A stretch of 64,000 nucleotides of DNA from a virus. Under the pieces are notes generated by a model that was given only the letters and a program-made list of their open reading frames with translations, was not told the origin of the DNA and searched no databases. The position numbers and the translations under genes are program-made. The stretch is from IMG/VR virus record IMGVR_UViG_3300031565_014867, positions 17,783 through 81,782 of that record. The stretch is one strand, 5' to 3'. Shown here one piece after another: positions 39,381-52,223 of this stretch. Positions within the stretch are counted from its first letter, which is position 1, and the number at the start of each line of letters is the position of its first letter.

Positions 39381-40280
39381 ATGCAGGACAAAGCGGCGGA
39401 CATTCCGATCGACCAAATCACCGAGCCGAGAACCGTGCTGCGCCTTGTGGATAAGGACTCGGTGGAGTACCTCGAAATGCGCGACTCGATTGCCGCCGAG
39501 GGCTTTTGGAACTCGATCTCGGTCCGTCCGGCGAAGGACGACGGCAAGTACGAGATCATCGACGGTCTATACCGCTATACCTGCGCACGCGAGTTGAGTC
39601 TGCAGTCGATCCCCTGCATCATCAAGTACAAACTCTCGGATGATGCGGTGCTTGCCGCACAGATTCAAGCAAATGCCATTCGGCCGGAGACGAAGCCGGT
39701 GGAGTTCGCCCGGCAAATGAAGCGGATGTTGACCCGTCGTCCCGAGATGACGTTCGACGAATTGGCCCACCTGATCCACAAGTCGCCAAGCTGGGTGCGG
39801 AAGACCCTTGGGTTGCTCCGGCTCGTCCGCAAATCGCGGAAGATGGTCGATCGGGGTGAAATTGCGATCCAATCTGCCTACATGCTGGCCAAGATTCCGC
39901 ATCACCTTCAAGCGGGCTACCTCGACCCGGCTCGGACACTGCCAAGCCGGGAGTTTCGAGCGCTGGCGGCCAGTGTCATCAAACAGTACACCGAGGCGGT
40001 TAAGCAAGGGAGGATGAAAGCGTTTTGGTGTGGCGAGTTCCGGCCGCAGGCCCACCTCCGTTCGTTACGCGACATCCAATCGGAAACGCAACGGCAGGAA
40101 GTGGGCGCGTTGCTCGTCACGGCAGAGCAATGCAAAACGCCCGTGGACGGATTCTACGCCGCCTTGCGCTGGGCCATGCACTTGGATCGTCAGAGCGTCG
40201 AGGACCAAGAGCGATCCGCCCTCGCCCGTTTACGACAATCACTGCCCGAAGAAAGTGAGGTGCAACATGTGACCGACTAG
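39381..40280 (+). CDS. ParB/Srx-like DNA-binding protein
   Basis: A 299-residue ParB-family protein. The N-terminal ParB domain has LEMRDSIAAEGFWNSISVRP and YEIIDGLYRYTCARELS in place of the usual GxRRxxA box. A helix-turn-helix follows (MTFDELAHLIHKSPSWVRKT) and a helical C-terminus. It could be a partition protein or a transcription regulator of the adjoining divergent promoters. It is the first gene of the rightward replication operon, just behind element C. Confidence 0.8.
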   Translation: MQDKAADIPIDQITEPRTVLRLVDKDSVEYLEMRDSIAAEGFWNSISVRPAKDDGKYEIIDGLYRYTCARELSLQSIPCIIKYKLSDDAVLAAQIQANAIRPETKPVEFARQMKRMLTRRPEMTFDELAHLIHKSPSWVRKTLGLLRLVRKSRKMVDRGEIAIQSAYMLAKIPHHLQAGYLDPARTLPSREFRALAASVIKQYTEAVKQGRMKAFWCGEFRPQAHLRSLRDIQSETQRQEVGALLVTAEQCKTPVDGFYAALRWAMHLDRQSVEDQERSALARLRQSLPEESEVQHVTD

Positions 40281-46356: not shown

Positions 46357-47166
46357 ATGAAGCGACTGGAGCAATACGACGTGTTCTCGTTGCCCGTGTC
46401 GGAGGTGTTCTACGACGCGGACTTCAACTGTCGTGGTGCGTTCACGCTTCAGTCGGTCGAGGAGCTTGCCCAGAGCATCGACGAACTGGGGTTGCAGTTC
46501 CCGGTGGTCGTGCAGCCGTCCGAGGAAATCGAGGAGTTGGAGCATGAGGGGTTTCGATGGCGACTGATTGCCGGGCATCGACGATTTCGAGCAGTAACGA
46601 CCTTCCTCAAGTGGACGGAGATACCGGCGTCTGTGTGGCAAGGGCTGACGGAGCGGCAGGCCCGGATGTTCAACTTCACCGAGAACCTGGAGCGGAAAGA
46701 CCTGAACGTGTTGGAGGAAGCCCGGGCGTTGGGCCGGCTCTTCCCCCAGGGCACATCGTTACGAGAGGCCGCAAGGGAACTGAAACGGCACACCCGATGG
46801 GTCCAGGCCCGGTTCCGACTACTCAGGCTGCCCAAGGAAGTGCAGATCAAGGTGGCGGCTGGGACGCTGAGCCTGGTGGACATGGAGGCCGTCGCCCAAT
46901 TCGAGACGCCAGACGAACAGATCAAGGCGGCCAATGACATCGCCAAGGCGAAGCGGCGCGGCCGCCATCCGAGCGAGACCAAGCCGGGCCGCAGCTTCCG
47001 CTATCGGAAAACAAAATCGCAGATTAACCAGATGATTGCGAAGTTGATGGAACACGGGCTCGACGGACTCACGACACGCGCACTGGCTTGGGCTGCCGGT
47101 TCTATTGGTGACAACGAGTTTGACGAGGACATTCGGCAAATAGAGCGTGAGTGCGAGCGATCGTAG
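46357..47166 (+). CDS. ParB-like DNA-binding protein 2
   Basis: A 269-residue ParB-domain protein: VEELAQSIDELGLQFPVVVQ, WRLIAGHRRFRAVTTF (the GxRR box), and NFTENLERKDLNVLEEARAL are diagnostic. A central helix-turn-helix (SLREAARELKRHTRWVQARF) follows. It differs from the first ParB-like protein, which has a degenerate box. Four 9-bp direct repeats directly behind its stop codon could be its binding site. Confidence 0.85.
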   Translation: MKRLEQYDVFSLPVSEVFYDADFNCRGAFTLQSVEELAQSIDELGLQFPVVVQPSEEIEELEHEGFRWRLIAGHRRFRAVTTFLKWTEIPASVWQGLTERQARMFNFTENLERKDLNVLEEARALGRLFPQGTSLREAARELKRHTRWVQARFRLLRLPKEVQIKVAAGTLSLVDMEAVAQFETPDEQIKAANDIAKAKRRGRHPSETKPGRSFRYRKTKSQINQMIAKLMEHGLDGLTTRALAWAAGSIGDNEFDEDIRQIERECERS

Positions 47167-49779: not shown

Positions 49780-49917
49780 ATGGCATTGCCGTCACGACTC
49801 ATCACATTCCGCGATGCTTGCACGTTCGTCAACCGGGAGAACATGCACAAGCGCAAGGACTCATGCCGTGACCGACAACGCCTGCCCGAATCAACGCACC
49901 GACAATGCGAAAACTAA
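49780..49917 (+). CDS. Small basic hypothetical protein
   Basis: A 45-residue frame with GGAGG upstream of ATG 49780, inside the end of the polymerase gene, and overlapping the VRR-NUC start by 13 bases. It is basic and Cys-poor (ENMHKRKDSCRDRQRLPEST). Overlap and ribosome site support translation, but its length makes it uncertain. Confidence 0.45.
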   Translation: MALPSRLITFRDACTFVNRENMHKRKDSCRDRQRLPESTHRQCEN

Positions 49918-50306
49918 CTATCCCAGGTAGACGAGGGCCGGAATGGCACATCCAACGCGACTTGAAACAGTTCCTTTCAGATCGCGGATGGTTGGTCGAG
50001 CACACGCACGGCAACCTGTACCAACAGGGATTGCCCGACCTGTTCGTGGCGCATCCGCGATACGGACAGCGTTGGATCGACTGCAAACACCCCAAGCGAT
50101 ACTCGTTTACCAAAGCGCAACGAATCAAGTGGCCGCTTTGGGAACAACACGGCGTCGGCATTTGGATCATCACTGCCGCAACGCAGGAACAGTACGACAA
50201 ACTGATGGGGCCGCCGAACTGGCGAGACTATTGGAAACCGTCCTGGGGCGAGATGCCGGACATTGACGCCTTGCTCGACGAACTCGCCGTGAGTGAGATC
50301 GAGTAG
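49905..50306 (+). CDS. VRR-NUC nuclease (PD-(D/E)XK fold)
   Basis: A 133-residue nuclease. The catalytic core is GLPDLFVAHPRYGQRWIDCK (PD...D-x-K), with HTHGNLYQQ upstream giving the conserved Gly-Asn region and the helix FTKAQRIKWPLWEQHG. VRR-NUC proteins act as Holliday-junction or flap endonucleases. It follows the polymerase, as in many phage replication modules. Confidence 0.85.
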   Translation: MRKLTIPGRRGPEWHIQRDLKQFLSDRGWLVEHTHGNLYQQGLPDLFVAHPRYGQRWIDCKHPKRYSFTKAQRIKWPLWEQHGVGIWIITAATQEQYDKLMGPPNWRDYWKPSWGEMPDIDALLDELAVSEIE

Positions 50307-50418: not shown

Positions 50419-51618
50419 ATGAAACTCCAAACGAAACCCAACCCCTGGTCGTGCGTCGGATCGGCGTTCGCAATGGTGCTCGACATTTCCGCGGCCGACT
50501 TCTTCGGCCACGTCGGGCACGATGGCAGCGAGATCGCTTTTCCCATGCTGCCCGATCCGATGGCACGTCGGGGGCTTCATATCCAAGAGTGCATCACCGC
50601 TTGTGTGAAACTCGGCAATGCTGTCACGCCGATCGAGTTGTTCCCGGTGATTCAGGCAACGACCCCTGACGAGAACAACGTCCTCGTTCTCTTCGGCGAC
50701 GACGAGTCGGCCAATTGGCATCGCTTGGAGAAGGTCGTTCAAACATCAACCGGTGTGCTCGAAGGCGTCGGCCGCCGATGCCTCCATGCTGTGGCCTACG
50801 ACCACGGCATGATCTTCGATCCGGACGGCGACCACTATCCCTATTCCCGCCCCGCCTGCGAGTCGCGTGGCTTTTGGCCTCGCCGTGCATGGCGCGTAGA
50901 CCGTCTCCACTCTCCACCTCCCAATCCATCTATCCCAGAACTCCTCCGAAAGGACCATACCGTGAGTTCCTATGACTACGATTTGACAAGCAAGATTCCA
51001 AAGGCATTGGACCGCAAACAGAACGAGCGGCTCTACGCCCGCGTCATGGCGGGCGACGGCAAAGCTCGCGAGGAAATGATTGAGGGCAACATGCCGCTGG
51101 TGATTGCCAAGGTGGACGCCTATGTCGGCTGCCATCCGCAGGTCGCCTATCTGCGCGACGACCTGCACAGTGCCGGCTTCCTCGCGTTGGTCAAGGCGGT
51201 CAACACGATGGCCGATCACGACCAACCGAGCAACGTGAATCCCACGGGCTACATCTCAGTCGCCATTACCCACGAGATCACCAGAGTGACAGAGAAGGAG
51301 TCGGCAATGGGCCTGACGAGCATTCCCGAATCAGTGGATGGTCCTGTCAGCAACCACGACGTTCCCGAGGTGGAACACGACATTCCCGATTCAACCACCG
51401 ACGTGAACGAGAGCGCAGTGCAGGGACTATTCGAGTTGCGAGACGTGCTCCAGTCGTGCTGTGAATCCGACAAGGAGCGCACGCTGCTCCGGATGCGCGA
51501 AGAGGGTTACTCGGACCGTGAGATTGCCGAGACGCTCGACCTTCCCCACATCACCACGTTTCGACTCCGCAAGGAACTGGAAGAGCGTTTCAACCAGAAG
51601 TGCCGCGAATTGGAGTAG
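50419..51618 (+). CDS. C39-like cysteine peptidase domain fused to a sigma-70-type RNA polymerase sigma factor
   Basis: One 399-residue frame. Residues 1-150 show a C39-like peptidase pattern: PNPWSCVGSAFAMVL (Cys), GRRCLHAVAYDHG (His) and MIFDPDGDHYPYS (Asp). After a Pro-rich linker, residues 182-399 form a sigma factor: region 2 helices AREEMIEGNMPLVIAKVDAY and LRDDLHSAGFLALVKAVNTM, and a region 4 helix-turn-helix EEGYSDREIAETLDLPHITT with FRLRKELEERF. GTG at 50962 (with GAAAGGAC upstream) could start a separate 218-residue sigma factor, so the fusion may yield one or two proteins. Likely partner of the three 46-nt elements (inference). Confidence 0.8.
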   Translation: MKLQTKPNPWSCVGSAFAMVLDISAADFFGHVGHDGSEIAFPMLPDPMARRGLHIQECITACVKLGNAVTPIELFPVIQATTPDENNVLVLFGDDESANWHRLEKVVQTSTGVLEGVGRRCLHAVAYDHGMIFDPDGDHYPYSRPACESRGFWPRRAWRVDRLHSPPPNPSIPELLRKDHTVSSYDYDLTSKIPKALDRKQNERLYARVMAGDGKAREEMIEGNMPLVIAKVDAYVGCHPQVAYLRDDLHSAGFLALVKAVNTMADHDQPSNVNPTGYISVAITHEITRVTEKESAMGLTSIPESVDGPVSNHDVPEVEHDIPDSTTDVNESAVQGLFELRDVLQSCCESDKERTLLRMREEGYSDREIAETLDLPHITTFRLRKELEERFNQKCRELE

Positions 51619-51623
51619 TAGCC

Positions 51624-52223
51624 ATGCTTCCAACGCGAATCCTATTGGACCTGGACGACGTGTGCAATCGGTTCACGATGTACGCGCTCAAGCAAGTCGG
51701 TTGCCCCGTTGACGAACTGGCCTACCGCGACTTCAACCCCGCATGGGGCTGGGACATCGTGGGTGCGGCCAACGCGCTGCATTTGACCCGCGAGTTCACG
51801 CCGGCCGAGTTCTGGGACTCGCTGGACAGGGACGTGTGGGCAAGCGTGCCGGAGTCGGGCGAGTTCAAGACTCTGCTTCGTCGGTGCGAAGCCCTGGTCG
51901 GTCCCGAGAACGTCTGCATCCTCAGCAGCCCGACGCTCGATCCAGACTGCCTGGCAGGCAAGCTCGAATGGATTCACCGTCACTTTCCGAAGCGGATGCA
52001 CCGGCAATTCCTGATCGGTCCGCGAAAGCACTTTTGCGCCCGGCCAGATGCCTTGCTGATTGACGACGGCGACCACAACGTCGAAGCGTTTCGCGCCCAC
52101 GGCGGCCAGGCGATCCTCGTACCCCGCCCGTGGAATTCGCTTCACTACATGCCCACCGAGACCCACCTTCACGACGCACTCTCCATGTTCTTCCACATGA
52201 AAGAACATGCCGGAGTCGCGTGA
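51624..52223 (+). CDS. HAD-family 5'(3')-deoxyribonucleotidase-like phosphatase
   Basis: A 199-residue HAD hydrolase from ATG 51624. Motif I is LLDLDDVCNRF (DLDDV), motif II CILSSPT, motif III Lys in IGPRKHFCA and motif IV LLIDDGDHNVEAF. Phage enzymes of this shape dephosphorylate dNMPs to adjust nucleotide pools, matching the dNMP kinase and MazG genes here. It starts five bases after the sigma factor's stop codon. Confidence 0.8.
   Translation: MLPTRILLDLDDVCNRFTMYALKQVGCPVDELAYRDFNPAWGWDIVGAANALHLTREFTPAEFWDSLDRDVWASVPESGEFKTLLRRCEALVGPENVCILSSPTLDPDCLAGKLEWIHRHFPKRMHRQFLIGPRKHFCARPDALLIDDGDHNVEAFRAHGGQAILVPRPWNSLHYMPTETHLHDALSMFFHMKEHAGVA

Follow-up and report, generated by a model that had tools for sequence, protein, structure and literature searches.

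Is a peptidase-like domain joined in frame to a phage sigma factor one protein selected as such, or are these two genes that have lost the stop between them? The question arises at positions 50419-51618 (plus strand) of a 64,000-nucleotide stretch, here called the window, of an 81,782-base IMG/VR virus record, where a reading frame runs open from ATG to TAG and encodes 399 aa. An earlier note had described this frame as an uninterrupted peptidase-sigma fusion, and the frame is indeed uninterrupted: two domains occupy residues 1 to ~162 and 182-399, and the stretch between them reads HSPPPNPSIPELLRKDHT.

Two domains in one open frame

Since the window proteins themselves have almost no database matches, we used motif and profile scans of related phages to assemble the families. 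Single-protein scans with either window domain found no viral relatives, and tblastn against cultured phages returned none for the N-terminal domain and weak matches alone for the sigma part. The N-terminal domain (50419..50904, plus strand) is a C39/papain-like cysteine peptidase domain with Cys12, His123 and Asp134-Pro135, encoded as a separate gene in all relatives. Its homology stops at about residue 162 and stays in frame up to the domain end, which rules out a frameshift within it. An AlphaFold model of the domain has a pLDDT of 94, and confidence drops to 61-75 from residue 161 onward. In the PDB, the best structure matches come from PCAT1 and LahT, namely their C39 peptidase domains (E 5e-4 to 3e-3, Foldseek probability 1.0), with TM-scores by target length of 0.59-0.66 against isolated C39 domains. 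In the model, as in LahT (PMC6363468), the first helix opens with the Cys, and the His and Asp are carried by consecutive strands; the Asp-Pro motif has its counterpart in Asp121-Pro122 of CvaB (PMC3335142).

The family alignment of this domain (57 sequences, A3) shows Trp10, Cys12, Gly33, Gly36, Glu57 and His123 to be invariant. Among the catalytic residues, C12 and H123 are present in 57/57 sequences, D134 in 55/57 (Asn in the other two) and P135 in 55/57. The oxyanion-hole Gln, which in CvaB is Gln26, six residues before the Cys (PMC3335142), is Lys6 in the window; Gln stands there in just 10 of the 57 sequences and Lys or Arg in 37. As judged from these residues, the C39-like protein is likely, yet not certainly, an active cysteine peptidase, since the oxyanion Gln is swapped for Lys/Arg in most members. 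Outside the catalytic triad, GHDGSE (residues 33-38, 50515-50532) and HxQE (residues 54-57, 50578-50589) are nearly invariant and possibly have a structural or metal-binding role. A Pfam scan of the 57 members found no C39 or other peptidase family up to E 0.1, no PHROG matched the family reliably, and a PDB sequence search with it returned just repeat-protein and polymerase noise.

The C-terminal part (50962..51618, plus strand) is a sigma-70-type factor with a predicted role at RNA polymerase and promoters. It matches PHROG 351 with E 9e-12, as do 35/39 members of the sigma family, and the family profile matches SigF (1l0o) with E 3e-20 together with many SigA, RpoS and RpoD chains. Region 2 (core binding, -10) of the profile aligns to region 2 of SigF and SigA (E 3e-20 and 4e-12, respectively). 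A second aligned stretch corresponds to SigF 200-241, the region 4 helix-turn-helix (-35), and the predicted model is helical; the window sigma sequence itself has weak HTH and Sigma70_r4_2 matches under the Pfam cut-off. Thus, both domains named in the earlier note were correctly recognised, the first by its fold and its Cys12/His123/Asp134 and the second by PHROG 351 and the SigF profile. A different sigma architecture was seen in one related locus (L135:2974-4575), where a sigma domain carries a ~320-aa C-terminal extension and no C39-like gene lies nearby. The window also has two ParB-like genes (39381-40280 and 46357-47166; Pfam ParB_N and HTH_ParB).

Related phages and the closest relative

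We compared the frame with about 63 related records, comprising 60 IMG/VR loci, two more reached via the sigma gene and two MAG contigs, with one locus lacking a detected sigma gene. An in-frame peptidase-sigma fusion is absent from all of them. A search based on the C39 domain yielded 60 loci, every one with its own C39 stop (60/60), and a sigma-like gene follows downstream on the same strand in 59/60; the stop lies at most 60 nt from the sigma start in 47/60. In a handful of distant loci the sigma scores are weak and the gaps wider; Pfam support for some of these sigma-like genes is weak or absent. An independent search based on the sigma gene yielded 38 loci, with a C39 gene directly upstream in 37/38 and always with its own stop. 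These locus counts are not independent events, since some contigs are near-identical. The typical junction ends the C39 protein with ...AWRIDPIGERTCE and its stop, overlapped by the sigma GTGAGTAA in frame +1; others are ATGA-type overlaps in frame +2. In L162 (3001-3471), the C39 gene and a downstream helix-turn-helix/sigma-like gene share one frame and are parted by a single TAA (CAATAAATG). A long open frame in L023 was considered as a second fusion and ruled out, because the C39 domain there uses a different frame, closed by a stop of its own.

The closest relative, L136, is the sister of the window with support of 100/99. There the C39 gene ends AWRVDHLS-TAA, and a 16-nt spacer with AGGG precedes the sigma ATG. 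Protein identity to the window is about 73-74% for C39 and 65-66% for sigma, compared with 85-89% for PolA, the nuclease, NT5C and the ligase and 76% for the methylase, so that C39 and sigma form the fastest-diverging gene pair in this comparison. Both are under purifying selection, with dN/dS values against L136 of 0.21 (C39) and 0.19 (sigma). The two domains and all five neighbours align between window and sister as single collinear unbroken pieces. The L136 contig was binned in a Pirellulales MAG and that of a further relative, L137, in a Chloroflexi one, which hints weakly at the hosts.

The relatives also bear on two further claims of the earlier note. It had proposed that the GTG at 50962 with a ribosome site could make the sigma factor alone, and at this GTG an independent sigma gene does begin, with a start that is conserved. 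The AAAGGA site before it (50949..50954, plus strand) gives a duplex energy of -5.6 kcal/mol, compared with a mean of -6.5 for the sigma starts of relatives and -3.4 for shuffled sequence. The proposal of a functional fusion that processes itself or releases its sigma factor found no support, as the homologues are two separate genes in every relative examined, the sister included.

The junction and its missing stop

The two domains are separated by 57 nt (50905..50961, plus strand) without an in-frame stop, whereas the closest relative has TAA at the corresponding place. The translated stretch exists as the "Pro-rich linker" that had been described, but its DNA is composed like a spacer (47% C, 7% G, resembling spacers of the same phage). 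Its log-odds for coding vs intergenic sequence is -13.5 bits, lower than every 57-nt window of both domains, and is a rough value since the coding model was trained on the same two domains and the intergenic model on 318 bases. At this composition, 19 codons would be free of stops with a chance of ~0.62-0.67, so that an open junction is unremarkable once it is in frame, and one in three junctions is expected to be in frame. Both alternative frames terminate at the sigma start. In one of them, the C39 frame would end at the TGA at 50963..50965 (plus strand), which lies within GTGA, and in the remaining one, the frame of the +1 relatives, at the TGA at 50973..50975 (plus strand).

Could the frame nevertheless have been selected as a fusion, in which a tethered peptidase processes itself or holds the sigma factor inactive until cleaved? 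The frame and the triad are intact and both domains are under purifying selection, which would fit this reading, but we regard it as very improbable: no relative is fused, the sister included, the linker is composed like spacer DNA, and sigma has retained its start and ribosome site. A sequence or assembly error, in which a one-base indel or substitution hides the junction stop of a genome that carries two separate genes, is unlikely to a lesser degree. The in-frame state is a singleton, seen in one record, and either other frame would stop at one of the two TGAs, like the relatives. Against an error, the unbroken collinearity with L136 gives no sign of poor sequence, and the window junction is ~20 nt longer than that of L136, to which it aligns poorly, a difference that no single error accounts for.

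We therefore favour the reading of two genes rather than one designed fusion, with the separating stop probably lost on the branch of the window by turnover of the junction. That the junction turns over is indicated by L056 (3001-3627), where the C39 gene has also lost its usual stop, in this case out of frame, and overlaps the sigma gene by ~125 nt. The fusion in this phage would then be a local accident that is not conserved, tolerated rather than selected. In the cassette of this phage lineage, the C39 gene overlaps or abuts the sigma gene, which is equipped with a start and a ribosome site of its own; the window contig lacks the C39 stop, and its junction is by chance open in the sigma frame. 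Translation from ATG 50419 would yield the 399-aa C39-linker-sigma protein, and GTG 50962 would yield sigma alone, by re-initiation or by independent initiation as in the relatives.

The conserved gene pair and known systems

Beyond showing how a stop gets lost where two genes overlap, the fusion itself tells us little; the conserved C39-sigma pairing, rather than the fusion, is the mildly interesting part. No described C39-sigma pair was found in the open-licence papers searched, and both the C39-like family and the pairing are absent from the libraries and papers covered, a search limited in scope, making the pair a modest new observation.

In most loci, the two genes sit in a cassette with the order PolA, small nuclease-like gene, C39, sigma, NT5C and ligase. 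The small upstream gene (49905..50306, plus strand) is conserved and nuclease-like by eye, without a Pfam match, and we take it to be VRR-NUC-like. The usual downstream neighbour (51624..52223, plus strand) is an NT5C-type 5'(3')-deoxyribonucleotidase. Because the whole cassette order is conserved, C39-sigma adjacency is weak evidence of joint function, and it may reflect shared descent instead. That the genes have no functional link, being merely co-located in a conserved early/middle cassette while the C39-like enzyme acts elsewhere, is a possibility that we take seriously without favouring it. The synteny of the entire block fits it, but the C39-sigma order survives in divergent loci whose flanks (3 kb for most loci) showed neither PolA nor the nuclease, and in L137, where NT5C has moved elsewhere. 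The distances of C39 and sigma correlate with r 0.88, the highest of the pairs tested (others 0.68-0.81), a value confounded by shared phylogeny. L137, this correlation and the low identity that both genes show between the window and L136 make the case for joint function a little stronger. Across all loci, sigma evolves fastest among the five genes compared and C39 at about the rate of NT5C.

If the two genes do act together, the C39-like protein could be a non-proteolytic regulator or partner of sigma, an anti-sigma factor or chaperone, like SpoIIAB upstream of SigF. The tight coupling of the genes, their rapid divergence between window and L136, their correlated distances and the resemblance of the sigma factor to SigF are consistent with such a partner, as are the replaced oxyanion Gln and the existence of catalytically dead C39-like domains that merely bind substrate (PMC6363468). 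The invariant Cys and His and nearly invariant Asp in 57 sequences argue for catalysis, however, and the shared phylogeny behind the distance correlation weakens that point too, so that we hold this alternative to be somewhat doubtful. Our own guess, offered tentatively, is that an active C39-like peptidase made alongside sigma helps the phage factor to gain host RNA polymerase, most likely by cleaving a transcription regulator of the host or the phage. Pairing of an unannotated C39-like family with sigma in >60 uncultured phage records would then suggest that phage takeover of transcription may include a proteolytic step. More speculative still, and in our estimate rather improbable, is a widespread switch in which a C39-like peptidase translationally coupled to the phage sigma factor cuts a regulator so that sigma takes RNA polymerase, with the two parts here made as one protein.

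Among known systems, the C39 family (PCAT1, LahT, CvaB), whose peptidases cut after double-glycine leaders, shares with the phage proteins the fold, the positions of Cys, His and Asp on it (the head of the first helix and two successive strands) and the Asp-Pro motif. Here, in contrast, the domain is a stand-alone small phage protein without an ABC transporter, with 10-15% identity and no Pfam match, and the phage family adds GHDGSE and HxQE and has Lys/Arg for the oxyanion Gln in most members. The sigma part resembles SigF/SigA-type sigma-70 factors and the PHROG 351 phage sigmas, as regions 2 and 4 match by profile, but it is short and divergent, its region 3 is unrecognisable, and it is paired with a C39-like gene. 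In gene arrangement, the closest parallel named here is the SpoIIAB-SigF operon. SpoIIAB is an ATP-binding anti-sigma kinase whose gene lies directly upstream of the SigF gene. Although SpoIIAB is unrelated to C39, in both cases a gene for the partner or putative partner stands directly upstream of the sigma gene and, judged by position, is probably co-transcribed with it.
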